A stretch of DNA of 34,100 nt from positions 1-34,100 of the forward strand of contig JAJYWN010000074.1 of the NCBI GenBank assembly GCA_021791495.1, given 5' to 3'. This DNA comes from Bacillota bacterium (GTDB lineage Bacteria > Bacillota > Sulfobacillia > JAJYWN01). Under the pieces are notes generated by a model. It did no database searches, was not told the DNA's origin, and worked only from the letters and a program-made list of their open reading frames with translations. Shown piece after piece: positions 1-28,816 of this stretch; within the stretch, counting starts at the first letter, position 1, and each line of letters opens with the position of its first letter. Position numbers and translations under genes: made by a program.

Positions 1-501
1 CGATCTGGCCAGGACGCTCCAAGGGTACTTCAGCATCCTGGTGCCGCCGTCGGGACTGCGAACTTCCATCCCTTTTTCCGTGTCCAGCTTATCAAAGCAC
101 AGCCCGGCCACCCTGCACTTAGGAGGCTTCTGCCCGATATCTTGGACGAACTCCGCGACTGCCGGGAGATCCGGAAGGGAATCCGGCGCGTTGACTAGGT
201 GCCAAAGGGTGATGAGGGTGTGGGTCTTCCCTCCGCCGTATGTAAGCTCCAGTTGCCGTACGGCCTTGTCGTTCTTGCCAGCAAGTCTCAGGACTACGTC
301 GCGCACCAATCGCCGAAGGTTATATGTGGGGTAGGTTAGCGCGAAGAAGCTCTCTGGCTTCTCGTAAACCGGGCGCTTTCCTTGCTGCATCAAGACCTCA
401 TACAGATCGGCGGCAAACATGTGGAGCGGCAACTCACCGGAACAAAGGTCATCACGAAGTCTGACTACCTCATGCCAAGGTTTCCAGGGGAAGGCGTTCA
501 C
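1..501 (-). CDS. DUF499 family AAA+ ATPase, N-terminal part (cut by window edge)
   Basis: Third gene of the helicase-methyltransferase operon; only about the first 167 residues are inside the window. The translation shows the DUF499 N-terminus: PWKPWHEVV, a segment FAADLYEVL, then the Walker A variant TYGGGKTHTL at about residue 85. DUF499 proteins are large P-loop ATPases (about 900-1200 aa) found beside DUF1156 methyltransferases, and BrxC/PglY of BREX is assigned to the same family. I chose the GTG at 501 because a GGAGG lies 8 nt upstream; the in-frame GTG at 510 would sit right on that Shine-Dalgarno sequence. The gap to the methyltransferase stop is about 22 nt, so co-transcription is very likely. 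Its role as an ATP-driven component of a DNA-modification defence complex is inferred from family and context. Confidence 0.85.
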   Translation of the reverse strand, partial: MNAFPWKPWHEVVRLRDDLCSGELPLHMFAADLYEVLMQQGKRPVYEKPESFFALTYPTYNLRRLVRDVVLRLAGKNDKAVRQLELTYGGGKTHTLITLWHLVNAPDSLPDLPAVAEFVQDIGQKPPKCRVAGLCFDKLDTEKGMEVRSPDGGTRMLKYPWSVLARS

Positions 502-523
502 AGATGGCACCTCCAGATACCTT

Positions 524-3500
524 CTACACGACCAACTCGGTCTGCACTTTCGTAGGGCCTTGACCCTGTATGTGATTGCTAAGTGACTCAAGCAGGGATC
601 GTTCTTCGCTACGGGGCTGGGACAGCTCAATTAACGACTGGAGAAGCCGCTTGAACAGCTCCTGTCGCCGCAACCCGTTCTCGTCCAAATACTCGTTCAC
701 CTTCTGAAGGTTTCCAGTCTTCCACAAGTGCATTAGGCAGTGTGCCTGGTCAATCATTGGGGCAGGTCTCCCCGAAGGGGGCCGGTAACCAAGGGTGCGG
801 CTCTTACGCTGTGACCAGGTCTTCAACCGGACCTTGCTACCTGACTTCTCCACGGGCCCCGGATCGCCGCCCTCATCGTGCCCGGTCTCATAGGCCCCAC
901 TTGAGCCTTCTTCCTTGCCATCGGTACCTGTGCCTCTGGAAAAAGCAATCAAGTCCCAGGTGCCGGCCAGTTCTCTATCGGAGATGCCGCATGAGACGGC
1001 ATAGAGGATGCATGCCCCAGCGGGAGCATCATCCAGACCGAAGTCGTGGCGGTGAAGCAGGTAATATGCAGTAGGTCCGTCTAGACGTTCCAAGGTCATG
1101 GAATCCGAATCGGCATCGTCACCCGACAGTACCCGTCCAACCACGAAGTCCACGACCATCCTCCGGACATGGTTGAGGAATTCCCCAACGGTCATGGTCG
1201 ACGACGGCTCGTCGGCTTTCCTTACCACAGGGTGCTTGCTGTAAGCTTCGAGGGCCGGCCCAGTCGCTGCCCAAACGAAGTCAGGACCTCGGATACCCGC
1301 GTCCCAGTACTCCCTGAGACGGACGTTGATATTTGCCCGCATCTCTTCGAGGACGTTGCCGTCCCACCCAGGCCGGGAGCTGTCGGGACGTTTCTTACAG
1401 ACAAGCCAAACGGAAGAAGACAATGCTGCGGAAGAGAGAGCACGCGTGCGATTACTCATCTCCGTCTGGATTGGCCAGCTGGCGTTCACGACGAACCCTG
1501 CCCTGATGATCGCAGACGCCAGTGTCTCCCAGGCATCGGGTTGCTTGTGGGCGAAGACGATGACCATCCGGCCATCTTCCCTCAATGATCGGTGACAAGC
1601 CTGGAAAGCCCGGAACATGCCCTCCTCATAGGCCGCTTTGGACTTCTGTTTGTCACCACCGTGACGGCTGGAGTCATCAATCAACTCGCCATCATTCGTC
1701 TCGTGGTCCCACTTTGGCGATAGGGGTTCGCGGAAGACCGTATCGATGTCCGGAGAAACCCCATAGAGAGAGCGGTGAAGCCAAACATAGAAGTAATCCA
1801 TCAGGTCGGAATACGGGATGGCATCATAGTAAGGCGGGTCGGTTACGACAATGTCTATAGTGCCGGAGATCTGACCAGACAACGCCGATTGATTCAGAAC
1901 TGATACGGTGGATTGGTTTGCGGCCTTGGAGGAGTGTTCAGCCACTCGCGAGACCCAATCCAGACAGCTGACGTAGTTTCCGGAAGAACTCGACAGGGGG
2001 CTGATTTCGGCAAAGTCCCAGGTAATAGGCAGTGCGAACCTAACGAATACGTTTCTGACCTTCTCCAGTGCCAAGTCCCATGTGCTTAGTGTCGAATTGC
2101 GGTCAGCAAGCTTGTCGACTGTCAGCCCGAGATACGCGGAGATAGCTTCAACCCACTTAGAAGGGTAATCTAGGGAAGCCATGGCTTCTCGGACCAAACG
2201 CGTGTGCTTTACGAGAATGCCCAAAGCGAGAAGCTGCCGGGACGAAAAAAGCCTGGACCAAGTGCTGAAGCCGTATAGTGGAACACGGAAGCCCAAGGCC
2301 TCTTTGCTTGGCAATGGTTCATCGGGCACCCCAAGAGGGATCTCCGCAAACACCCTTGTTACTCCTTGCCCAGCTTCAGTGCAAGCCTGTAGCTCCTTGG
2401 TGGTAGGTGCGCGGTATTCCTTCCCGCCCAGTCCCTCCACAATCACGGCCGTCATTTGGGTGCTCAGACGATCTGCCTGACCTTCCAGGCGGATGTCCTC
2501 CATGGTCGTGATTGTTCCGCAGTGCGGGCACTTGCCTCCGGAAGCCGACATTGTGCCAGTGTCTATACGGCTGTCTTCAATGGGCCGCCAGGAACTTGAG
2601 CCGCCGTCCGGGACCTCTGTTTCAACTCCGAAGGTGAGGGCACTGTTGGCTTGATCAGGGCGTAGGGTCAAGTGAACTCGCTTTCTGCTCTTCTTGCACA
2701 GCCACCGGGTCTTCAGCAAGGGTATGGTTGCCCGGCAGTTCTTGCACTGGACTGTTCTCGCCCAAAGATAGGCAACAGTGGGCTTTGCGACCCAACGGGG
2801 GTTCCGCTTGTCCGCCAAGTACCCTTCACTTAATTCGGCGTTCAGAGCTTGGATATCAGGTAGGCCGTCCTTTCCGGTCGGCACCAGTCGCATTGGCTGT
2901 CTTTCGAACGGCTTAGGCCATCTTGTGTCAAGTGGCTCGAAATCTGCATAGGTGGGGTAAAACCCCGCCAGTTCCCCCCGCGCATGGTCCAGCACCCATT
3001 CACCCCAGGCTCGTATATGCCAGTGGAGGTCAGCCTGGGGTGGCCATTCGCAGTCATGCTCCTCGTCCAAGAACGACCAACCAAGCTGCTCGCCTTGGCC
3101 ATGCGCATCCGTTACTGGGATCTTAACTTGCGGATGGGCCTCTCTGAACGCTTCCATGAACTCACGATTTGTGAGAATGAAGTCCGGCAGGGGCTGGGTC
3201 TTGCCAGCGAGGTCCCGAGGGTACTCCAGTGTAGCCTTCAGGAGCAACCAGGCGACTGGGTTGATGTCACCTGCGATAACGTCACAGCCCAGGCGCATGG
3301 CCTCAAGGGGTATGGCTCCGCCTCCCGCGAACGGGTCCAGGACCTTTGGAGCCCGACCTCCGTGAGCTTCGCGGATTTGCTCCCGAAACGACTCCAAGCT
3401 CTCTCTGTTCTCGGTCTCGCGGCCCCAGTGAAGAACGCCACCTTCGGTGGCATCCCTCTCTCTCTCGACAACTTGGCCGTCGGTGTGCTGTGTTTCCACC

Positions 3501-3736
3501 TTCTTGACAACCTTGCCGCCAATACGCTGGGAGAGTTCCGCGCGCTTCTCAGGTGTGCCAGGGTCCGGAAGGAGAGTGGCCAAAAGTGCGGCGCGGCATG
3601 CGGCAAGGGGACGCCGAGCGGGCCAAATATGGAGAGTAGAGATGTGGCCATGGCGCACGCTCTTCTCATGAACGGAGTCGAGAGATGCCTGCTTGAGTGG
3701 AAAAGCGTGTTCGATTAGGCGCTCGAAGTCGCTCAT
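524..3736 (-). CDS. DUF1156 / COG1743-type adenine-specific DNA methyltransferase
   Basis: A 1070-residue protein predicted to transfer a methyl group from S-adenosylmethionine to adenine in DNA. The N-terminus (ERLIEHAFPLKQASLDSVHE, then IWPARRPLAACRA) is the DUF1156 signature. The SAM-binding motif DPFAGGG is at residues 134-140 and the catalytic DPPY at 633-636. Between them are cysteine clusters (C331, C334, C347; CPHC at 403-406) that look like a zinc ribbon. The start is the ATG whose first four bases overlap the helicase stop (ATGA), which implies translational coupling; the reading frame stays open 59 codons further upstream, but that stretch lies inside the helicase gene and is not methyltransferase-like. 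The size and domain plan match PglXI-like enzymes of type 3 BREX. Target sequence is unknown. Confidence 0.93.
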   Translation of the reverse strand: MSDFERLIEHAFPLKQASLDSVHEKSVRHGHISTLHIWPARRPLAACRAALLATLLPDPGTPEKRAELSQRIGGKVVKKVETQHTDGQVVERERDATEGGVLHWGRETENRESLESFREQIREAHGGRAPKVLDPFAGGGAIPLEAMRLGCDVIAGDINPVAWLLLKATLEYPRDLAGKTQPLPDFILTNREFMEAFREAHPQVKIPVTDAHGQGEQLGWSFLDEEHDCEWPPQADLHWHIRAWGEWVLDHARGELAGFYPTYADFEPLDTRWPKPFERQPMRLVPTGKDGLPDIQALNAELSEGYLADKRNPRWVAKPTVAYLWARTVQCKNCRATIPLLKTRWLCKKSRKRVHLTLRPDQANSALTFGVETEVPDGGSSSWRPIEDSRIDTGTMSASGGKCPHCGTITTMEDIRLEGQADRLSTQMTAVIVEGLGGKEYRAPTTKELQACTEAGQGVTRVFAEIPLGVPDEPLPSKEALGFRVPLYGFSTWSRLFSSRQLLALGILVKHTRLVREAMASLDYPSKWVEAISAYLGLTVDKLADRNSTLSTWDLALEKVRNVFVRFALPITWDFAEISPLSSSSGNYVSCLDWVSRVAEHSSKAANQSTVSVLNQSALSGQISGTIDIVVTDPPYYDAIPYSDLMDYFYVWLHRSLYGVSPDIDTVFREPLSPKWDHETNDGELIDDSSRHGGDKQKSKAAYEEGMFRAFQACHRSLREDGRMVIVFAHKQPDAWETLASAIIRAGFVVNASWPIQTEMSNRTRALSSAALSSSVWLVCKKRPDSSRPGWDGNVLEEMRANINVRLREYWDAGIRGPDFVWAATGPALEAYSKHPVVRKADEPSSTMTVGEFLNHVRRMVVDFVVGRVLSGDDADSDSMTLERLDGPTAYYLLHRHDFGLDDAPAGACILYAVSCGISDRELAGTWDLIAFSRGTGTDGKEEGSSGAYETGHDEGGDPGPVEKSGSKVRLKTWSQRKSRTLGYRPPSGRPAPMIDQAHCLMHLWKTGNLQKVNEYLDENGLRRQELFKRLLQSLIELSQPRSEERSLLESLSNHIQGQGPTKVQTELVV

Positions 3737-6700
3737 TGGGTCGCCTCCGCAGCTTGGATGATCTCTCGGGGCGCGACCAGGACGCTGCCCTTGGCCTTGG
3801 CGAGAAGCGACCCAAAGGGGTCCTGGACCCGCATCAGACGTGGATTGGGGGTGGCACAATCGTAAGCGGCGTAGAGCCAGTAGGCGTGCCTCATGTTGCA
3901 GGCTTTGGCCCACTCATTAGCTGAGACCTCTACGTCGCCGGTTCCGGCACGCCCCTTGACCTCAATGGCCCGCCGTTCGTTCCCCTGCCTGATGGACAGG
4001 AGGTCGAAGCCAGGATTCTCGGGGAGCCCCGCCGCACGGGCGAGTTCGGGAGTATGGACATCAAGGACCGTGGCGCCGGCCGCCTCCTCGAAAGCGCGGG
4101 CTATCGCCATGGCAAGCAGCTCGACGTCGGCCTGGTGCTGTTCCAGGTCGGCTGGCTCGGAGGACGGGACAACCAGAGCGTGGGCGACGAAAGTCACGTC
4201 GCCGGGCGAAACCAACTCCGGTTCTCTCTCCAGGCACTCCAGAGCCAGCCGTCGCTTGTCGGCCAACTGACGCTGGAGACCCTTCACATCCTCCAGGGCC
4301 TTGGCAGCTTCGCGGTTCCCGTCGCGTGCCTTCTCCCAGTGTTTCGCCCTGGCACTGGCTAATTCGGCCTCCTGGAAGTCGAACCCCTGTCGGACAAGTT
4401 GCTGGCGGTCACGCAGCACGCGTGCCAGGCCTTCCTTCTTGTCGGCTACCATACCCTGGGCAACATTTTGGACCAAGTAAGCTCTGGCTTGCTCTCTTTC
4501 GTCTACGGCCGTGGCAGCGAGCTTTTGGGCGGGCGCCGGAATACCGTGGCCGCCTCTCAAGAGCAGAAGATGTTCCACGGGGCAGGGCGAGATCAAGCCC
4601 TCCGCATCCTGTTTTACTCCCACGAGCTGACAGGTCAGGAGTTCCTCCCTAGCCAAAGGCTCAAAGTCGGTATCCTGTTTGCGGACAACTGAAACGAGTG
4701 CAAGGTGGAAGAGGTATGGCTTCTCGGCGCCAGGGTCCACGAACACGGCACCCCGGATTCCGTCATTCGCAAGGCGGTCCCTGATGGTTGTCCGCAGGCT
4801 CTCAAAAACGGGCTCCCCGGGGCGGAGCCAGATTGCCGCGTTTGGGGCGGTGGGCCGTTGCAGGGAGAAAGCACCCCTGGTCTCTTCCGGGTACAGATCC
4901 AGCGCCGGCAACAGCGGATCCATGGCCCCTGGCCTAGCTGGTTGCATCGAGAACACGCCGGACATGTCTCCGTGGATGGCCAGGCCGAGGAACGCGGCCG
5001 CCTTCTCAACATACTGCCTGACGTATCCGGGTAACAGGTGGAAGAAGACTTCCTGCTCAGAGTCCGTGCGGAGCCGTGGCAACTCCTTGGCGACGTCCTG
5101 GCCGGCGCCGAATAGCTTCTTTTCGCGATCAATCAGTGCCTGGACCCGTCCCGCGTTCAGTCGATTGTCCAGGTCCATTTCTATCTCGGCTGTGGATCCA
5201 TCGAGTGCCCGTTCCATGTATTCCTTGATAGAGATTCCATCAAGGACGCGCCCCACGCAATCGAAAACCTTGTCCGAGTGCAACTGCGCCCTAATCTTGT
5301 CCAGCTTGTCCAGGAGAACCTTGAGGACCTTGCCCTCACGGGTGGAGGGTGCAACCAGGTTCAGGATGACGACTGGATCATGTTTCTGCCCGTACCGGTG
5401 GATTCGGCCCATCCGTTGTTCTAGCCGCGCGGGGTTCCAAGGGATGTCGTAGTTGATCATGATCCAACAGAATTGAAGGTTGATTCCTTCGCCGGCGGCG
5501 TCAGTACAAACAAGGAACCTGGCTCCGCCCTGGTTGAGAGGCTGCCGGAAGCGGTCCACTTCTTGCTCCCGCTCGGTGTAGTGCATTCCACCGTGGATCT
5601 GTGCGACTTGGTCGGTGTATCCCAAGCCGTTAAGGCGCCGGACAAGAAACTCAAGGGTATCCCGGTGTTCCGTGAAGACGATGAACTTCTCCCCGGCAAG
5701 TTTGGGGTCCAGTAGCACCTCATGGAGCTTCGAGAACTTGGATTCCTGACCCGAATCCGTTACCGCCCTAGCCAGGGAGAGAAGGGTCCGGACCTGTTCT
5801 CTTTCGGCGAGAAGGTCCGCCAGGGAAGCCGCAATCACGCCCTGAAGGAGCTTGTCCTCAGAAAGCTCACTCTCCTCGGCGCCGTGGTCGGGCGTCTCAT
5901 CCTCAGCGGTCTTGGCTTCCAGGACATCGTCACCTTCGCGAATCTTTCGCTGGGCGGCCAAGAGTTGTTCGATCGAAAGCCTCCCGTCCTGGATCTGGTC
6001 GATAAGGGCGGCTAGCTTTTCGATACGCCGTTCGAAGGAACGGAGTAGGGCATAGGTGGAACTGGCAAGGCGGCGCTGGAAGACGCTCATCGCCAGACGG
6101 GCGGCCTCGCGATTCAGGAGTTTGGCCTTGTTGTAAACGAAACGCAGGTAGTCGCTGGTTTCTTCGTAAAGGGTCTGTTCACTGACGTCGCCTTGGGTCA
6201 GGTCATACCCGAGAGTGTCCGTGATGCGCTTGGGGTACATGGGCCTGCCGTCGAGGTAGACCATCTCTTCTTTCGTCCGTCGGATGAAATGTGCTTGCCG
6301 CTGCTCCTCAGGGTAATGGGCGAACGCCTCCGGAGTGCTCAGGACTTCGGGCTCCAAGAGCTTCCAAAGGGCGAAGTAGGGGTACTCCTTGCCCATGTGT
6401 GGTGTGGCCGTCAAGAGCAGGAGATGATGCGTGCGCCATCCAAGCCGCCACTCGGGTTCCTGGGTAGACACACCGGCCAAGGCTTCGGCTAGGCGGTAGC
6501 GCTCGGTCTTCCTCACGCGCCAGTCCGGTCCCCGGTCGGCGGCGAGCTTATGGGCCTCGTCGAAGATCACCAGGTCGTAGGGGGTGACGGTGGGCTCCTG
6601 AAGCCGAGAGAACACGCGGCGGCCGGCCAAGGTGTCGATGCTCACGATTACCTGGTCGCTCTCCGGTCCAGCAAACGGGTTGTTGTCGCGGGCGTCGCTT

Positions 6701-7341
6701 CCTTCCACGATGCGGAAAGACAGGTTGAAAAGGGTCAGCAATTCGCGGTGCCAGTTTCCCACCAGACCGGCCGGGGGGACGATGAGTATCCGGCGGAGGA
6801 GTCGCCTCGATAGCATTTCGCGGATGTACAGCCCCGACATGATCGTTTTTCCGGCGCCGGCGTCATCGGCGAGAAGGAACCGGAGCCGGGACTGCTTGAG
6901 CATGTGGTCGTAGACCGCGATCCGCTGATGTGGCAGTGGGTCGATGCTAGAAATCTCGGTCGCAAAGGTGGGGTTGGCGAGGTGGCCGAATGAAAGCCGC
7001 TCGCCTTCGGCCAGGAGTTTCACGGCTTCGGGATCGGCGGTGAAATCCAAGGTCACGAGGGTCTGTTCGCGACCGGAACCGCCGGAAGTGGTGCCGTATG
7101 CGGCGACCTCTTCCCTAACCTCCCCACCGATCGTCATCTCCAGCTGCCTTAGTTGGTTCCAAGGAAGCTGCGACGGCCTGGTCTGCCCATTCTCCCACCG
7201 GTTGACCGTCACGAAGGAGACTCCAAGGCGGTCGGCCAGGGCCTGCTGGGTCAGGCCAAGCCGGCCACGAAGGCGTTTGATCTGGTTTGGGTAATCCTCG
7301 CCCGGCCTGAGCCCAAGAGGACTCCATCCTGTCATTTCCAC
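3733..7341 (-). CDS. XRE-HTH / SNF2-family helicase / DUF3883 fusion protein
   Basis: A 1202-residue fusion and the first gene of the operon. Residues about 21-68 form an XRE-type helix-turn-helix (LTQQALADRLGVSFVTVNRW). The SNF2 motor follows: Walker A-like DDAGAGKT (159-166), DEAH (261-264), TATP (311-314), CTDAAGEGINLQ (612-623) and the arginine-finger motif QRMGRIHRYGQ (642-652). The last roughly 97 residues match DUF3883, with FD near 1113 and EVK at 1127-1129, a PD-(D/E)XK-like pattern. Related helicases accompany DUF1156 methyltransferases and DUF499 ATPases in BREX-like loci. The N-terminal regulator-type domain is unusual for this family and may mean that the helicase controls its own operon, or recognises DNA. 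The GTG at 7341 has GGTGGGA upstream; the ATG at 7335 is an alternative start. Confidence 0.93.
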   Translation of the reverse strand: MEMTGWSPLGLRPGEDYPNQIKRLRGRLGLTQQALADRLGVSFVTVNRWENGQTRPSQLPWNQLRQLEMTIGGEVREEVAAYGTTSGGSGREQTLVTLDFTADPEAVKLLAEGERLSFGHLANPTFATEISSIDPLPHQRIAVYDHMLKQSRLRFLLADDAGAGKTIMSGLYIREMLSRRLLRRILIVPPAGLVGNWHRELLTLFNLSFRIVEGSDARDNNPFAGPESDQVIVSIDTLAGRRVFSRLQEPTVTPYDLVIFDEAHKLAADRGPDWRVRKTERYRLAEALAGVSTQEPEWRLGWRTHHLLLLTATPHMGKEYPYFALWKLLEPEVLSTPEAFAHYPEEQRQAHFIRRTKEEMVYLDGRPMYPKRITDTLGYDLTQGDVSEQTLYEETSDYLRFVYNKAKLLNREAARLAMSVFQRRLASSTYALLRSFERRIEKLAALIDQIQDGRLSIEQLLAAQRKIREGDDVLEAKTAEDETPDHGAEESELSEDKLLQGVIAASLADLLAEREQVRTLLSLARAVTDSGQESKFSKLHEVLLDPKLAGEKFIVFTEHRDTLEFLVRRLNGLGYTDQVAQIHGGMHYTEREQEVDRFRQPLNQGGARFLVCTDAAGEGINLQFCWIMINYDIPWNPARLEQRMGRIHRYGQKHDPVVILNLVAPSTREGKVLKVLLDKLDKIRAQLHSDKVFDCVGRVLDGISIKEYMERALDGSTAEIEMDLDNRLNAGRVQALIDREKKLFGAGQDVAKELPRLRTDSEQEVFFHLLPGYVRQYVEKAAAFLGLAIHGDMSGVFSMQPARPGAMDPLLPALDLYPEETRGAFSLQRPTAPNAAIWLRPGEPVFESLRTTIRDRLANDGIRGAVFVDPGAEKPYLFHLALVSVVRKQDTDFEPLAREELLTCQLVGVKQDAEGLISPCPVEHLLLLRGGHGIPAPAQKLAATAVDEREQARAYLVQNVAQGMVADKKEGLARVLRDRQQLVRQGFDFQEAELASARAKHWEKARDGNREAAKALEDVKGLQRQLADKRRLALECLEREPELVSPGDVTFVAHALVVPSSEPADLEQHQADVELLAMAIARAFEEAAGATVLDVHTPELARAAGLPENPGFDLLSIRQGNERRAIEVKGRAGTGDVEVSANEWAKACNMRHAYWLYAAYDCATPNPRLMRVQDPFGSLLAKAKGSVLVAPREIIQAAEATQ

Positions 7342-7401
7342 TGCATTCCCACCACGTATACCTCTTTGGCAGGTAAGTCCAGAAGACCCTGCGGCTACCA
7401 G

Positions 7402-7417
7402 TATATCACCTGATATA
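7402..7417. promoter_or_regulatory. Palindromic operator candidate upstream of the helicase operon
   Basis: Perfect inverted repeat TATATCA-CC-TGATATA, 61 bp before the helicase GTG and the only strongly AT-rich element in this intergenic space. Size and symmetry suit an XRE-type dimer, and the first gene of the operon starts with such a domain. Autoregulation is inference. Confidence 0.5.
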
Positions 7418-9375: not shown

Positions 9376-10536
9376 CTACTTGTTGCCGGTAGCGGCCTTA
9401 GGACTCTCAATGGCGGCGACCGAGGGGCGCAGGCCGTATTTCTCCTCGTACCACGCCAACCAGGGCACCAGTGCGTCATCGCGTTTCTGACTTCCCTGGG
9501 CCGCCGCCAGAACGGTCTCGGTGCTTAGGGGACGGAATCGGTCCGCGAGTTCACCCTTAAGGATCTTCCGGTGGGCCTGGCCCGCATGGTCCTTTCCGGC
9601 AACGGGCGAGTCCAGTTCCCACAGATCACTGTTATCGTTGGGATACACCACTGAGAAGTCCACCCGGTGGTATCCGCCAGCCGTCTCCATCGCCCGGGCC
9701 ATGAGCTGGTTGCGCCACAGTTGGCAGAGGCTACCCTTGAAGGGGCAGGGCTCGTCGGTGCCGACGGGAGAGAGGTCGTAGACCGAATCGGGAGCCTTCG
9801 TCAGGGCCCAGTACCTGAAACCGTTCGCGGAGTGGTAGTAGCACAGGTCCGGATTGTCCCGAACGGCGCTGACGGGCTCACACTTGTGGCGATCGGTCCG
9901 GCCCTTGGACTTCGCGCCACCGCAATGGGTGAACTCGTCCTCGGTCAGTTTGTGTTCGATGAGCCAGGCGCAAGGGCGGCCTTGGGCGTCTTCGTAGAAG
10001 ATGGCCAGGTCGACGTCGGTTCCCACGTCGCGCGACGCCCCGCGGCCGCGCCCCTCGCCAAGGTGGTCCGCCACTCGGTTGACGTATTCGAACTCGTAAC
10101 CGGTGACGTGGGCGATGTTGGAGTTCAAAGCCTTGAGGATGTCGGTCCGGTATCCGCTGTGGAGGATGGGCCAGAAGAGGTTAAAGCAGGCCGCCTGGGA
10201 GCTGGCCAGGTGGCCGAAGAAGATGTGGGCCTGGATGCCGGGCCTCTCAAGGTATTGCCGGACGCTCTGGCGGATGGGTTCGTAGATGTTACGGAAGTTG
10301 CCGTCCGGGTGCCCGTCGTGGGGGAGGATCACGTCGTACGCGTGGCCCTTGTGCTCGCCGGGCTGGGAGATGCCAAGAACGTTGATCTTGTAGCCTGCCA
10401 GGTGTTCGTACATCCGCTGTTGGAAAGGGTTCAGATTCGACGGCAACCGGTAGATGGGGACCGCCTTCTTTCTTCTGGGATTCGGGCGAAGGGAAAGGTC
10501 GCAGGGGAAACAGGAAACATCTTCGCGGATAGCCAA
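9376..10536 (-). CDS. PGN_0703-type putative restriction endonuclease
   Basis: About 386 residues. It shows the hallmarks of the PGN_0703 family: GHLASSQAACFNLFWPI near residue 110, then GTDVDLAIFYED near 172-183 and AWLIEHKLTEDEFTHCGG near 190-207, giving a PD-(D/E)XK-like arrangement of D174/D176, E194 and K196. Cysteines at C205 and C219 and in CPFKGSLC further on may bind metal. I chose the TTG at 10536 because GGAGG lies 6 nt upstream; the ATG at 10599 is the longer alternative and would add 21 residues without an obvious ribosome binding site. Family members are annotated as putative nucleases; cleavage has not been shown as far as I know. Confidence 0.75.
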   Translation of the reverse strand: MAIREDVSCFPCDLSLRPNPRRKKAVPIYRLPSNLNPFQQRMYEHLAGYKINVLGISQPGEHKGHAYDVILPHDGHPDGNFRNIYEPIRQSVRQYLERPGIQAHIFFGHLASSQAACFNLFWPILHSGYRTDILKALNSNIAHVTGYEFEYVNRVADHLGEGRGRGASRDVGTDVDLAIFYEDAQGRPCAWLIEHKLTEDEFTHCGGAKSKGRTDRHKCEPVSAVRDNPDLCYYHSANGFRYWALTKAPDSVYDLSPVGTDEPCPFKGSLCQLWRNQLMARAMETAGGYHRVDFSVVYPNDNSDLWELDSPVAGKDHAGQAHRKILKGELADRFRPLSTETVLAAAQGSQKRDDALVPWLAWYEEKYGLRPSVAAIESPKAATGNK

Positions 10537-10607
10537 AGGTTTCCTCCAGACGCCGACAGTTGAATAAGCTCCTGTCAAAATGGACGGAGTCGTGAGCACT
10601 AGCGGGG

Positions 10608-18850: not shown

Positions 18851-19075
18851 CCCGGATCCGGTAGAATCAACCCGCCGTTCCAGCGCCGGCCTAGCGCCCA
18901 GGGTCGAGACGACGCTGGGCTGGCGCATTTCTTGGTCCTTCCGGGAGGCGGATGGGGAGGACCCGTCTCCTGCCGCGGCAAGGATGTCGTCCAGTAGGCG
19001 ACGAAGATGGTGGGGACGAAAGGAAACGGCAGGTCCTTTCACGGCCGCCGGAATCACAGCTTCTCGAGGTGGACC

Positions 19076-22000
19076 ATGCGTAACATCCGATCCCGCCTCC
19101 TGTTGCCGCTCGCGCTTCTAGCTGCGCTCTTGCTGAACGTGCGCGCCCCCGCCGCCTCAGCCGCCGACGCCGCTGGTGCCGCTGGTGCCACCGACGCCCC
19201 CATCCGCATCCTGGTGAACGGTCAGGAGATTCACCCGGACACCGCGGCCCAGATCGTGGACGGGCGCGTCTTGGTGCCGGCCCGCTTCATCGCCGAGCCG
19301 CTCGGCGCGAAAGTTAGCTGGGACGGAACTGCCCGGGCGGTGCTCATCACTTACGGCGATGGGTTAACTCCTGCTCAACGGTCGCCCGACCTGGCCGCCG
19401 CCGCACCCACCGCGCAGCCCGCTGCCGCCGCGCAGTCCGCTGCCGCCGCGCAGCTCGCAGGCAGTCAGGGTGGAGGTCAGGACGTCCGCCTCTTCATTAA
19501 CGGCCAGGAGATCCGCCCCGACGTGCCGCCACGCATCGTCGACGGGCGGGTCATGGTGCCGGCCCGGTTTGTCGCCGAACCCCTTGGAGCATCGGTCCGG
19601 TGGTCGGCCGCCGAGCGCACCGTGGTGATCAACGACCGTCTCTCTGGGCGCCTGGCCGCCGACGCCGCAGGCCTCTGCCCCTTCCAGCCCACCGACATCT
19701 TCTTCTTCGAGGTCTCCGACTGGGGTAACCTCGACGTCGTGAAGCGGACCCATGCCACGAACCTCGGCAGCACGCACCAGACCTTTGACCACAATAAGGT
19801 CAGTCTCGTCGAGGGAGGGGCAGCTCTCTACGCCACATCCGCCAGGCAGGCGGGTTTCCAGACCTTGATCATCCCGATAACCTCCGACTCGGCCGACTCC
19901 AAGACGGCCGGCACTCCGGACGACTGGGTTTACGACATTGATGGGAACCCAGTGGTGCCCCTGATGGACGCGAACGGGCGGCACTGGATGAGCCTGCTCA
20001 GCCCGACCTGGCAGCGGCACATCACGGACCTGGCCAAGGCTGCCGTCGATAGCGGCGTCGACGTTCTGACCATTGATACTTGGTCTTTGAACTTCGACGT
20101 GGCCAACGGCCGAACAAACGGTGACTTTTCCAAGTACAGTATGGCCGGCTTCCGTGACTACCTCCAAGGGCGATACGCCGCCGCCGAGCTGGCCGCGGCG
20201 GGCATCGCCGATATCAACGCCTTTGACTACGCCGCCTTCATCCGGGACGGGTACCGCCAGGCATACTTGACCGGCGACCGCCGCCGCGATGTCCCGTTCT
20301 ACCAGGACTTTTTGGACTTCCAGCTTGAGGCCAGCCGCAAGTTCTGGTCCGATCTGATGACCGAGGTGCGCGCCTACGCCGCCGCCCAGGGCCACAAGGT
20401 CTACTTCTCCGACAACGCCGCCGGCGATCTCACCACCAACCTGGCCCTGGCGGAGGATCTGGACGGCTTCATTTCGGAGTTCGACTTCGGCGAACCCCCC
20501 GCATCCAGGACGGTGGCCGCCCACAAGCTGGTGCGCAGCCTTGGCAAGTACTCCGGCCTGCAGACCAACTGCGCCGACGCCGCCCTCTACGCCCGCCCCG
20601 ACGTGGCCGAACTGATGAAGCTTTACACCGCCGAGGCCTACGCCTCCGGGGGCTTCACCTACGTCCCCTACGCCGACATGCTGACGGGCACCGCCAGGTG
20701 GAACCTGCACTATGCGGCGCTCGACGGTCTCTACTCCTACTACGACTTCATCGCCGGCAGCCCGTTTGTCTACGACGGCCTGACGTCCACGGCCCGCGTG
20801 GGGCTAATGTTCAACTACGCGGCGGAGAAGGGGCAGTGGTTCACCAGCAGCTCCTTCTACGGGATGGCCAATCTGCTCCAAGACGCCCACACCCAGTACG
20901 ACGTGGTGGTGGCGGGCGACGGGCGCTGGCTCCCGGACCGGCTTACCCTGGCGGAGCTGAACCGGTATGACGTTGTTATTCTGCCGAACGTCCGCACCTT
21001 GACCGAGCGCCAGAACGGCCTGCTCCTCGACTACCTTCGCCAAGGTGGGACCACTGTGACAGCCGGTGACACGCCCGCCGCCTTGGTGGAGGGAGGGGCC
21101 GCCGCGCCCGGCCTTGGACAGATCACCGTTCTTTCGGATGACATAGGGGCGGCCTACGCCGGCAGCCGGGACGCCGGGGCAGGGGCGCAGACGCAGGCGC
21201 GGGCGCGGGTGGCCGAGGCCTTGCGCGGGCTGGTGAGCGAGGATGTTCAGACGAGCGCCCCGCCCGAGGTGACCGCCCTTGCCTATGCCAAGGCGGACGG
21301 GTCGCAAATCCTCCATCTCCTCAACTACGACTTCGACCTGGCGGCCGGGCGGTTCCGCGCCCAGACCGGTCTGGAGTTCACGGTGCGGCTTGACCCCAGG
21401 ATGCTGGGGCGCGATATCGGTGTCTACTATCGCTCGCCCGACGGCGGCGGCACGCAGGAGCTGCCGTTCACGGCGAACGTGAACAGCATCAGCTTCCGTG
21501 TGCCGCGGCTGGATGTGTACGGCGTGGTCGCCATTGGGCCCAAGGGCTGGGCCCCGGCGGAGTGGCAGGTCGGCGCGCTGAGGCTGGGCGCGCCCGGCGC
21601 GCCGGAGTTGAAGGAAGCCGAAGCGCTGTTGGCTCAGGGTGACTACGGAGCCGCCGAACACACCGCCGTGCAGGCGGTGGCGGCTATGACCGGGACCAAG
21701 GCCGGCGCCGCCCTGGACAGTGCCAGAGATTCGGTGACCTGGTGGGAGCGGGCCGGCCGGACCTACCGTCTGGCCGAAGCTAAGCAGTTGGTGGCGCAGG
21801 CGGCGGACCGGTACGCGGCGGGTGAGTATCAAGGTGCTATCGACGGCGCGGAGGAAGCCTTGGCCCTGCTCCGACCGGCAGTCGACGGCGATCTGGCCGA
21901 CTGGACGGGCATCGCCGGCTTGCCGCTCACCTTTACGGCGCAGGCGGGGGCAGGCAAACCCCACATCGCGTCCATCAAGGCCATGAACGATGGCGACTGG

Positions 22001-22354
22001 CTCTACCTGGCCGTGGAGCTGACCGATACCGGCGGCGAGCCTAACCTTGACGTCGCCTTCGCGGTCTCCGGCGGAAGTGCCGCAGCCTCCGGCGGAAGTG
22101 CCGCGGTCAACGCCAATCTCTACGCGAACCGCTGGGGAGCCGGTATGGCCGCCAACGGCACCAAGATAAGCGTTACCAGCGCCGTCCGCGACGGCACCGT
22201 TGAGATCAGGATGCCTGTGGACTGGATCGGCGAGGGGCGCAACCTGGAAATCTCGGTGTTCGCGTCGTCCGGGGCAGCTGAACTGCCTTTCAGCAGCCGG
22301 GTCCAGGGGGACCGCGTTAAGAGCGATTACGTTATTGAGTTTTCGAGGGATTAG
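19076..22354 (+). CDS. Secreted glycosidase-like protein with two stalk (copper amine oxidase N-terminal) domains
   Basis: A 1092-residue exported protein. Residues 1-30 are a signal peptide (basic MRNIRSR, hydrophobic core, AASA). Two stalk domains follow at about 44-92 and 138-186, each with INGQEI or VNGQEI, DGRVLVPARF or DGRVMVPARF and AEPLGA, joined by an Ala/Gln-rich linker. Residues about 205-600 look like a TIM-barrel hydrolase (GVDVLTIDTWSLNFDV, ASRKFWSDLMTEVRAYAAAQ, DGFISEFDFGEP), then a glutaminase-like fold typical of beta-galactosidase trimerisation domains (YDVVILPNVRTLTERQ, GTTVTAGDTPA). A small helical repeat unit and a CBM9/DOMON-like domain (VDGDLADWTGIAG) end the protein. 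The ATG at 19076 has GAGGT 5 nt upstream. It probably acts on polysaccharide at the cell surface; substrate is unknown. Confidence 0.75.
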   Translation: MRNIRSRLLLPLALLAALLLNVRAPAASAADAAGAAGATDAPIRILVNGQEIHPDTAAQIVDGRVLVPARFIAEPLGAKVSWDGTARAVLITYGDGLTPAQRSPDLAAAAPTAQPAAAAQSAAAAQLAGSQGGGQDVRLFINGQEIRPDVPPRIVDGRVMVPARFVAEPLGASVRWSAAERTVVINDRLSGRLAADAAGLCPFQPTDIFFFEVSDWGNLDVVKRTHATNLGSTHQTFDHNKVSLVEGGAALYATSARQAGFQTLIIPITSDSADSKTAGTPDDWVYDIDGNPVVPLMDANGRHWMSLLSPTWQRHITDLAKAAVDSGVDVLTIDTWSLNFDVANGRTNGDFSKYSMAGFRDYLQGRYAAAELAAAGIADINAFDYAAFIRDGYRQAYLTGDRRRDVPFYQDFLDFQLEASRKFWSDLMTEVRAYAAAQGHKVYFSDNAAGDLTTNLALAEDLDGFISEFDFGEPPASRTVAAHKLVRSLGKYSGLQTNCADAALYARPDVAELMKLYTAEAYASGGFTYVPYADMLTGTARWNLHYAALDGLYSYYDFIAGSPFVYDGLTSTARVGLMFNYAAEKGQWFTSSSFYGMANLLQDAHTQYDVVVAGDGRWLPDRLTLAELNRYDVVILPNVRTLTERQNGLLLDYLRQGGTTVTAGDTPAALVEGGAAAPGLGQITVLSDDIGAAYAGSRDAGAGAQTQARARVAEALRGLVSEDVQTSAPPEVTALAYAKADGSQILHLLNYDFDLAAGRFRAQTGLEFTVRLDPRMLGRDIGVYYRSPDGGGTQELPFTANVNSISFRVPRLDVYGVVAIGPKGWAPAEWQVGALRLGAPGAPELKEAEALLAQGDYGAAEHTAVQAVAAMTGTKAGAALDSARDSVTWWERAGRTYRLAEAKQLVAQAADRYAAGEYQGAIDGAEEALALLRPAVDGDLADWTGIAGLPLTFTAQAGAGKPHIASIKAMNDGDWLYLAVELTDTGGEPNLDVAFAVSGGSAAASGGSAAVNANLYANRWGAGMAANGTKISVTSAVRDGTVEIRMPVDWIGEGRNLEISVFASSGAAELPFSSRVQGDRVKSDYVIEFSRD

Positions 22355-27158: not shown

Positions 27159-28816
27159 AATCGGGACAGCCTACCGATTCGGGGAACATGCACTTGGATT
27201 GTTCCTTTGTACTATCCCATCTTCTTTCCAGCTACGTACGCGGATAGGCCGGTCCTCGTCATCTGGGCTCCAGGAGGGGACAACCGGCCGTACCAGGCAC
27301 CGCAAGACGTCAACGCCGACAAGTCCGAACTGGAGTACTATGTTCGATGGGGCTCGGAGACAATCATAGCCCGCGGGCAGCTTCTGAATCAGCTGATGGC
27401 AGCCACGGCCAGGATCCCGTTTGATGACCGGAGGAGTCAAGGCGCCAGGGTCGAGGACCTCTCCCCAACCCTTGTGCGCCGGTATCTATACGATGTTCGC
27501 AGCGACCTTGTGGCCGAAGCAGGCCGTGGACGACAGGGACCTCTATCGCAAGCTCCGGATCGTCACACCGGTGAACAGCCATGAGATACCTCGGAACATA
27601 GGGCTGCTGCTATTCAACCCGGAACCCGACCGGTTCTTTGGTGGCGCCCGCATTGACGTCGTGCAATTCGGTGACGACGCTGGTGGCGACTTGATAGAAG
27701 AGAAGGTGTTCCGGGGCCCGTTACAAGACCAAATCCGAGCGGTCCTCGATTACCTGCGGACCTTCGGGACCACCATGGTGCAGAAAGTCAGAGGCCAGGC
27801 GGAGGCCGAGCGGACGGTACCGTATCCCTATGAGGCCATGGGGGAGGCTGTGGTCAATGCGGTGTACCACAGGGGCTACGACGAACCCACCGACCCAATC
27901 AAGATATATCTCTACCCGGACCGGATGGAGATAACCAGTTACCCAGGCCCTGTACCAGGCCCCCCGGTTCCGGCGAGGAACCGCCGCATCGGCGAGTTCC
28001 TCAAGGAGCTCAGGCTTGCGGAGGGAAGGGGGACTGGGATACCCAAGATCCGGCGGAAGATGAGCGAGAATGGCTCACCCGAAGCGGTTTTCGATTTCGA
28101 TGAGAACCGAACGTATTTCCGCGTCATACTGCCCGTTCACCCGCGATACCAGACCATCCATGCCTTGAGGGAGGCGGGGCACCTGTGGGCCACGGGTGAG
28201 AAGACAGCTGCGGTCAATCACCTGAGGAGGGCGTTCGAGAAGCAGCCAACATCCGGGGCGCTCACAGCCCAACTGATCGAATACGGTCTCGGCCTCAATG
28301 ACGAGGGACTTGCCGAGGCGACTTTGGCTAGGTTCGAGGAGCAGAAGGTGCCGACCGATCGGTCGCTCCCCTACCTCCCCTGACCGGCGTCCCGACGAGA
28401 CACTGGAGGCCGCCATCCTGCATAAGCGCATCCATGATTACGAGGGGGCGCACCGCCTGTTCGCGGAAGCCTATTCACTCAGTCCTAATGATGTAAAGAT
28501 CATTCATGAGTTTGCTCAGACGAAGATGAACCTGGCCCGATCCATGTGGCGCGGAGACCATGCAGTTAGGAGAAGGCTCAACCTTGAGGCGGTCGAGCTG
28601 CTGAGGAAGGCTTTGCAGTTAGCCGACAACCGGACCCGTGAGGCGCGGTGTTGGTATGACCTGGCAAGGACCTTGGACTCGCTTCGAGACTCCAACAGTG
28701 AGATTGAGGCCGCATTCCTTCGCGCTCGGTCTTTACTGCCCGAGGAACCACGGTTCACAGACGCCTACGAGGCCTGGAAATCCAAACGGCAGTCATCGCA
28801 GAGGAGGCAGCCCTAG
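27159..28816 (+). pseudogene. Decayed Schlafen/RecG-like (AlbA_2 / HATPase_c_4) gene with TPR tail
   Basis: Three frames read in order give one protein. The first (after the stop at 27156-27158) has PVLVIWAPGGDNRPYQAPQD and YYVRWGSETI, then RIPFDDRRSQGA. A +1 shift near 27525 leads to RNIGLLLFNPEPDRFFGGAR, NAVYHRGYDEPTDPI, RNRRIGEFLKELRLAEGRGT and DFDENRTYFRVILPVHP, the typical C-terminal part of RecG-like DNA-binding proteins. A further +1 shift near 28375, at a C run, leads to TPR-like helices ending at 28816. The usual N-terminal AlbA_2 domain of about 70 residues is missing. The genes of this family are associated with regulation or defence; this copy is almost certainly non-functional unless the indels are sequencing errors. 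Confidence 0.78.

Follow-up and report, generated by a model that had tools for sequence, protein, structure and literature searches.

In the operon analysed here, the SNF2 motor-nuclease of a restriction-type defence system carries an N-terminal XRE-type helix-turn-helix (HTH) domain, and comparison with related loci strongly supports the reading that this domain controls its own operon through a palindrome in front of the first gene. The weapon would thus very probably control its own production. The operon lies at the start of the window, i.e., the whole stretch of 34,100 nucleotides under analysis, which begins at the end of contig C32 in a genome of 81 contigs and 4.2 Mb that is 97% complete. 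Its genes and their parts are as follows:

3733-7341, minus strand: hmaA, encoding an XRE HTH, an SNF2 motor and a DUF3883/NOV_C PD-(D/E)XK nuclease (1202 aa; GTG at 7341, stop at 3733)
7168-7281, minus strand: XRE-type HTH of HmaA, HTH_3 (PF01381), residues 21-58, E 1.1e-11
5389-6888, minus strand: SNF2/SF2 motor of HmaA, residues 152-651, Pfam SNF2-rel_dom and Helicase_C
3850-4122, minus strand: NOV_C/DUF3883 nuclease-like domain of HmaA, residues 1074-1164, PF13020, E 2.8e-13
524-3736, minus strand: hmaB, encoding a DUF1156 adenine methyltransferase (1070 aa; ATG at 3736; PF06634, E 2.2e-18)
1-501, minus strand: 5' part of hmaC, encoding a DUF499 AAA+ ATPase (GTG at 501; best PADLOC match HmaC)

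The first-pass annotation had described these genes as one tight operon and its helicase as beginning with an XRE HTH and ending in DUF3883. Both descriptions stand, as the ATGA overlap at the hmaA/hmaB junction (3736-3733) and the gap of 22 nt from the hmaB stop to the hmaC start are exact, and Pfam places HTH_3 and NOV_C at the two ends of HmaA. The contig end breaks off hmaC at base 1, and the remainder of the gene opens contig C50 of the same genome (L034:1-2943), giving a joined product of ~1103 aa with a PF04465 (DUF499) match in the C50 portion; the window end and the C50 end share ~125 nt, with a discrepancy of 4 nt at the extreme tip. In the relatives, hmaA stands first and hmaB and hmaC follow on the same strand wherever they were found, except for one locus with a stray match. 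This gene order was rejected as a trait of the HTH-bearing systems, since HTH-less loci likewise place hmaA before hmaB.

The operon is a Hma system, equivalent to the Type-1-like BREX-related ("BR") systems, and belongs to restriction-type defence against phages. It unites an HmaA-like SNF2 helicase, an HmaB-like DUF1156 methyltransferase and an HmaC-like DUF499 ATPase, and the best PADLOC matches of the first two products are HmaA (E 1.2e-147, residues 98-1157) and HmaB (E 8.9e-116). The earlier label "BREX-like" gives way to this assignment, because HmaA, HmaB and HmaC came out as the top library matches, and because PglZ (PF08665), the defining component of BREX, has no match in the 97% complete genome, while two control genomes were positive; membership in BREX was rejected on this ground. 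DUF3780, a gene of BR Type-2, was without a match in this genome, as in every control genome under the same search.

The operon was mentioned in 2013 as a fusion between an SNF2 helicase and DUF3883, "a novel REase domain", together with HEPN-DUF499 (PMC3710099), and again in 2020 (PMC7641849), while the name Hma comes from PADLOC (PMC8565338, as cited by PMC12839542). In 2026, these DUF499-centred systems were recast as BREX-related systems, and that paper ascribes to the BR Type-1 helicase a Tudor domain, an SNF2 core, an inactive REase and an alpha+beta domain, followed by a C-terminal active REase in 79% of taxa, and to the BR Type-2 helicase an HKD nuclease in place of the Tudor domain (PMC12839542). 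In the HmaA of the window, an XRE HTH occupies the position where the Tudor domain is expected and, therefore, the system is filed as a variant of Hma/BR Type-1. Pfam found no PLD domain in HmaA, and its N-terminus is HTH_3, so that it carries no N-terminal HKD/PLD nuclease.

Further genes were noticed on the two contigs:

9376-10599, minus strand: PD-(D/E)XK nuclease of the REase-ARP family (PF22558)
27421-28383, plus strand: HATPase_c_4 (recG C-terminal-like) match, a domain often found with AlbA_2
19007-22354, plus strand: large ORF whose product has a copper amine oxidase N-terminal-type domain; long open frames overlap it on the opposite strand
L034 (contig C50) 3115-8739, downstream of hmaC: a ParA-like ATPase, an AAA_23 protein and a protein with a Cap4 nuclease domain

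The REase-ARP nuclease suggests a wider defence island, which the three genes past hmaC continue on C50. In the relatives, the hmaA-hmaB junction is often a slot for varied, effector-like cargo genes (for example in L061, L068, L076, L080, L100, L101, L119, L121, L122 and L125), which include a SMODS nucleotidyltransferase, a caspase, an SDH protease, Schlafen AlbA_2 and AbiEii, as well as an AAA protein with an OLD-like TOPRIM, a DUF4143 ATPase and Hypoth_Ymh; the junction in the window holds no cargo gene. Some of these may match the auxiliary effectors described in PMC12839542.

The recognition-helix region of the HTH of HmaA reads SFVTVNRWENG and is near-invariant among relatives, the N, R, W, E and N of its NRWEN core being invariant in an alignment of 18 sequences; the HTH block is modelled as four helices (block pLDDT 70-84), and its PDB relatives include the P22 C2 and 434 repressors. 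Sequence and model alike predict an XRE-type HTH fold with a conserved recognition helix. At the other end, the G, F and D as well as the E, V and K of the NOV_C motif GFD...EVK are invariant in the same 18 sequences, and the alpha/beta domain that contains it is well predicted in the structure model, in keeping with a predicted C-terminal PD-(D/E)XK nuclease. Between them lies the motor, for which RapA (Swi2/Snf2), a protein that recycles RNA polymerase, is the top PDB relative in sequence and one of the best in structure. However, the structural match starts only at model residue ~91-94, and the N-terminal region of RapA has no counterpart in HmaA. Since the full-length model has a pTM of 0.41 and its structure matches are dominated by the motor, only domain-level statements are drawn from it.

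The fusion had first been regarded as potentially new. It is not peculiar to this genome, since it marks one widespread clade, but no description of a Hma/BR helicase with an XRE or HTH fusion was found, including in the main text of PMC12839542. HTH-bearing HmaA homologues align with the protein from residue ~15, whereas HTH-less ones align only from residue ~98 and have a different N-terminal stretch of ~70 residues, described as Tudor in PMC12839542. Judged from these alignments, the XRE HTH has replaced the Tudor-like domain found at the N-terminus of other HmaA proteins. A scan for relatives of the HTH-bearing N-terminus returned 397 places encoding them, of which 80 were retained. A tree was built from 107 motor sequences by a quick method, with the N-terminal domain left out, and contains some long branches; in it, all 74 HTH-bearing HmaA proteins fall into one fully supported group of 75, in which HTH-less members are under-sampled because the HTH-bearing loci were retrieved via HTH-derived patterns. 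The sole HTH-less member, L039, represents a secondary loss of the HTH inside the clade, as a single case, and the sister of the group, L046, is HTH-less as well. The clade includes Bacillota, Planctomycetota, Myxococcota, Pseudomonadota, Acidobacteriota, Chloroflexota, Latescibacterota and Armatimonadota together with a Methanomassiliicoccaceae archaeon (locus L123), a distribution that probably reflects spread by transfer.

The evidence for a regulatory role of the HTH comes from the DNA in front of hmaA, where two overlapping elements were recognized:

7402-7417: candidate operator palindrome TATATCACCTGATATA, located 61-76 nt ahead of the hmaA start
7400-7408, minus strand: extended -10-like sequence TGATATACT formed by the right arm of the palindrome, as read from the sequence

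The palindrome is unique in the 4.2-Mb genome. The degenerate motif TATNNCANNTGNNATA, which was read from the upstream DNA of 11 HTH-bearing loci and fixed before new loci were tested, has exactly one match there, and none of 200 shuffles of the upstream region of hmaA in the window matches the motif equally well. A copy with one mismatch, GATGTCACCTGCGATA, lies at 3263-3278 within hmaB; the chance mean is 0.13 such copies per window, and it was treated as chance. When 250 bp upstream of the HTH were scanned allowing at most one mismatch, the motif was present in 64 of the 79 fetched HTH-bearing relatives versus 3 of 2262 control windows, and in a count over 80 loci the true motif scored 65 and its reversed version 4. 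With the four loci that duplicate the discovery set left out, the motif occurs in 61 of the 75 held-out loci, as 50 distinct site sequences, against 0.77% expected from dinucleotide shuffles. The other 15 of the 79 have only matches with at least two mismatches inside the scanned 250 bp; in L062, one of these 15, a perfect site lies just past this limit. The site accompanies the system across phyla and in the archaeal locus, and no motif with up to one mismatch precedes any of the 29 HTH-less HmaA loci, L039 included.

This conservation before HTH-bearing relatives and absence before HTH-less ones points to HTH-mediated autoregulation. The first-pass annotation had suggested that the motor enzyme could repress its own operon; the association of site and HTH strongly supports the autoregulatory part, of which repression is the most likely form. 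That the HTH binds the palindrome and that this binding represses is, as a joint claim, considered likely. HmaA, the first gene product and SNF2 motor-nuclease, would then double as the transcription regulator of the operon: its XRE domain would bind as a dimer to the 16-bp palindrome in the hmaA promoter, and HmaA in this position would block RNA polymerase and keep expression low through negative autoregulation.

The geometry of the promoters, whose positions in all loci are consensus matches and not mapped transcript starts, bears on the sign of this control. Approximately half of the loci have a TTGAC-like -35 followed, after 10-11 nt, by the palindrome, whose right arm serves as the -10, usually TGnTATA; in most others (about 24 loci) the palindrome ends 3-9 nt ahead of the -35, with a spacing spread over 19-25 nt. 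In the window, TGATATACT shares the offset of +12 with the -10 of about half of the relatives, and no -35 consensus was seen beside it. Because the extended -10-like sequence lies inside the palindrome of the window, binding should block RNA polymerase and, more generally, a palindrome on the -10 would be expected to repress. Since an extended -10 coincides with the right arm at about half of the loci, the motif might be thought to reflect conservation of the promoter itself (extended -10 TGnTATAAT plus an AT-rich flank) with no operator involved. However, the left arm is conserved equally, many loci have the palindrome apart from a separate -10, and the motif is absent from HTH-less homologues and random windows, so that this reading was rejected as having almost no likelihood.

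Some observations weigh against, or limit, the reading of HTH-mediated repression. In about half of the relatives the site precedes the -35, a position also open to an activator, the site in the window has a poor -35, and the joint loss of HTH and operator is known from the single case of L039. Many relatives (L055-L134) have CACRCGAT as a second element at a distance of 14-18 bp from the palindrome, in a direction fixed relative to the palindrome, the pair occurring in both orientations relative to the gene. It is correctly oriented in 50 of 71 loci versus 5 of 71 for the wrong-orientation control, and exact copies occur in 26 of 79 HTH-bearing upstream regions, in none of 29 HTH-less ones and in 1.4% of control windows; the rows of its logo were chosen for the element and, therefore, only placement and orientation count as evidence. 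The site in the window has no clear copy of this companion. An earlier statement that the -35 is always sandwiched by palindrome and CACRCGAT was withdrawn, because the palindrome sits on the -10 in several of the loci whose CACRCGAT lies downstream.

An alternative is a switch similar to the C proteins of Type II restriction systems, in which the HTH activates from the palindrome when scarce and represses via the second element when abundant, so that restriction would set in late when the operon reaches a new cell. The ~24 loci with a palindrome 3-9 bp upstream of the -35, many with CACRCGAT in the spacer, speak for it, as does a C protein-endonuclease fusion that activates its own promoter (PMC3850674). 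Nevertheless, this explanation is held to be improbable: activation is unlikely from a palindrome that overlaps the -10, as it does at about half of the loci and, judged by its offset, in the window, and the upstream sites vary by 7 nt in spacing without phasing, which on these consensus promoters would argue against a simple activator.

A different protein could also bind the palindrome, namely a host regulator, HmaB or HmaC, the HTH of HmaA serving to steer the motor to invading DNA. HTH-like domains are also described in BR HmaB and HmaC (PMC12839542), and the HTH of HmaA stands in for a putatively mark-reading Tudor domain. Yet HTH-less systems mostly have hmaB downstream of hmaA but lack the site (none of 29 loci), and a host regulator would have to be common to many phyla and an archaeon, which makes this alternative very unlikely.

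Under autoregulation by HmaA, DNA engaged by the enzyme might, speculatively, titrate it off the operator and so induce the system; such a release upon engagement of invading DNA is possible but unsupported. A more elaborate proposal has HmaA act as both sensor and switch, leaving the operator on unmodified invader DNA to induce operon and cargo genes, with palindrome and CACRCGAT read by the assembled Hma complex and not by HmaA alone; taken as a whole, it is judged unlikely.

Self-regulating restriction enzymes are already known. The SsoII, EcoRII, ScrFI and Ecl18kI methyltransferases repress their own promoters through an N-terminal HTH at an overlapping operator (PMC3874152). They share with HmaA a restriction-system enzyme with an N-terminal HTH and repression of its own promoter (proposed here), but there the regulator is a protective methylase, whereas here it is the motor-nuclease effector and its promoter leads the whole operon. 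In the C protein-endonuclease fusion CR.NsoJS138I, too, a restriction nuclease is joined to a small HTH regulator that targets its own promoter (PMC3850674); this enzyme is of Type IIP and its C protein activates, whereas HmaA is an SNF2 motor-nuclease of a multi-subunit system with another site that often overlaps the -10. With Hma/BR Type-1, as described in PMC8565338 and PMC12839542, the operon shares the helicase-nuclease, the DUF1156 methyltransferase and the DUF499 ATPase in the order A-B-C, and an SNF2 helicase with a C-terminal DUF3883/PD-(D/E)XK; it differs in the XRE HTH that replaces the Tudor-like domain and in the conserved candidate operator, neither of which was found in the texts searched. 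The apparent novelty lies in the placement of the regulator on the SNF2 motor-nuclease within a multi-subunit defence operon, together with an operator conserved across phyla.

For many defence systems, little is known about how they are regulated, and regulators such as BrxR, CapW, RptR and the C proteins are mostly encoded by separate genes. Here, one large and widely transferred clade appears to have built the regulator into the effector. The conserved site offers a ready list of sites and a means of predicting and tuning Hma expression, as well as a direct way to ask whether a restriction motor reports infection to its own promoter.
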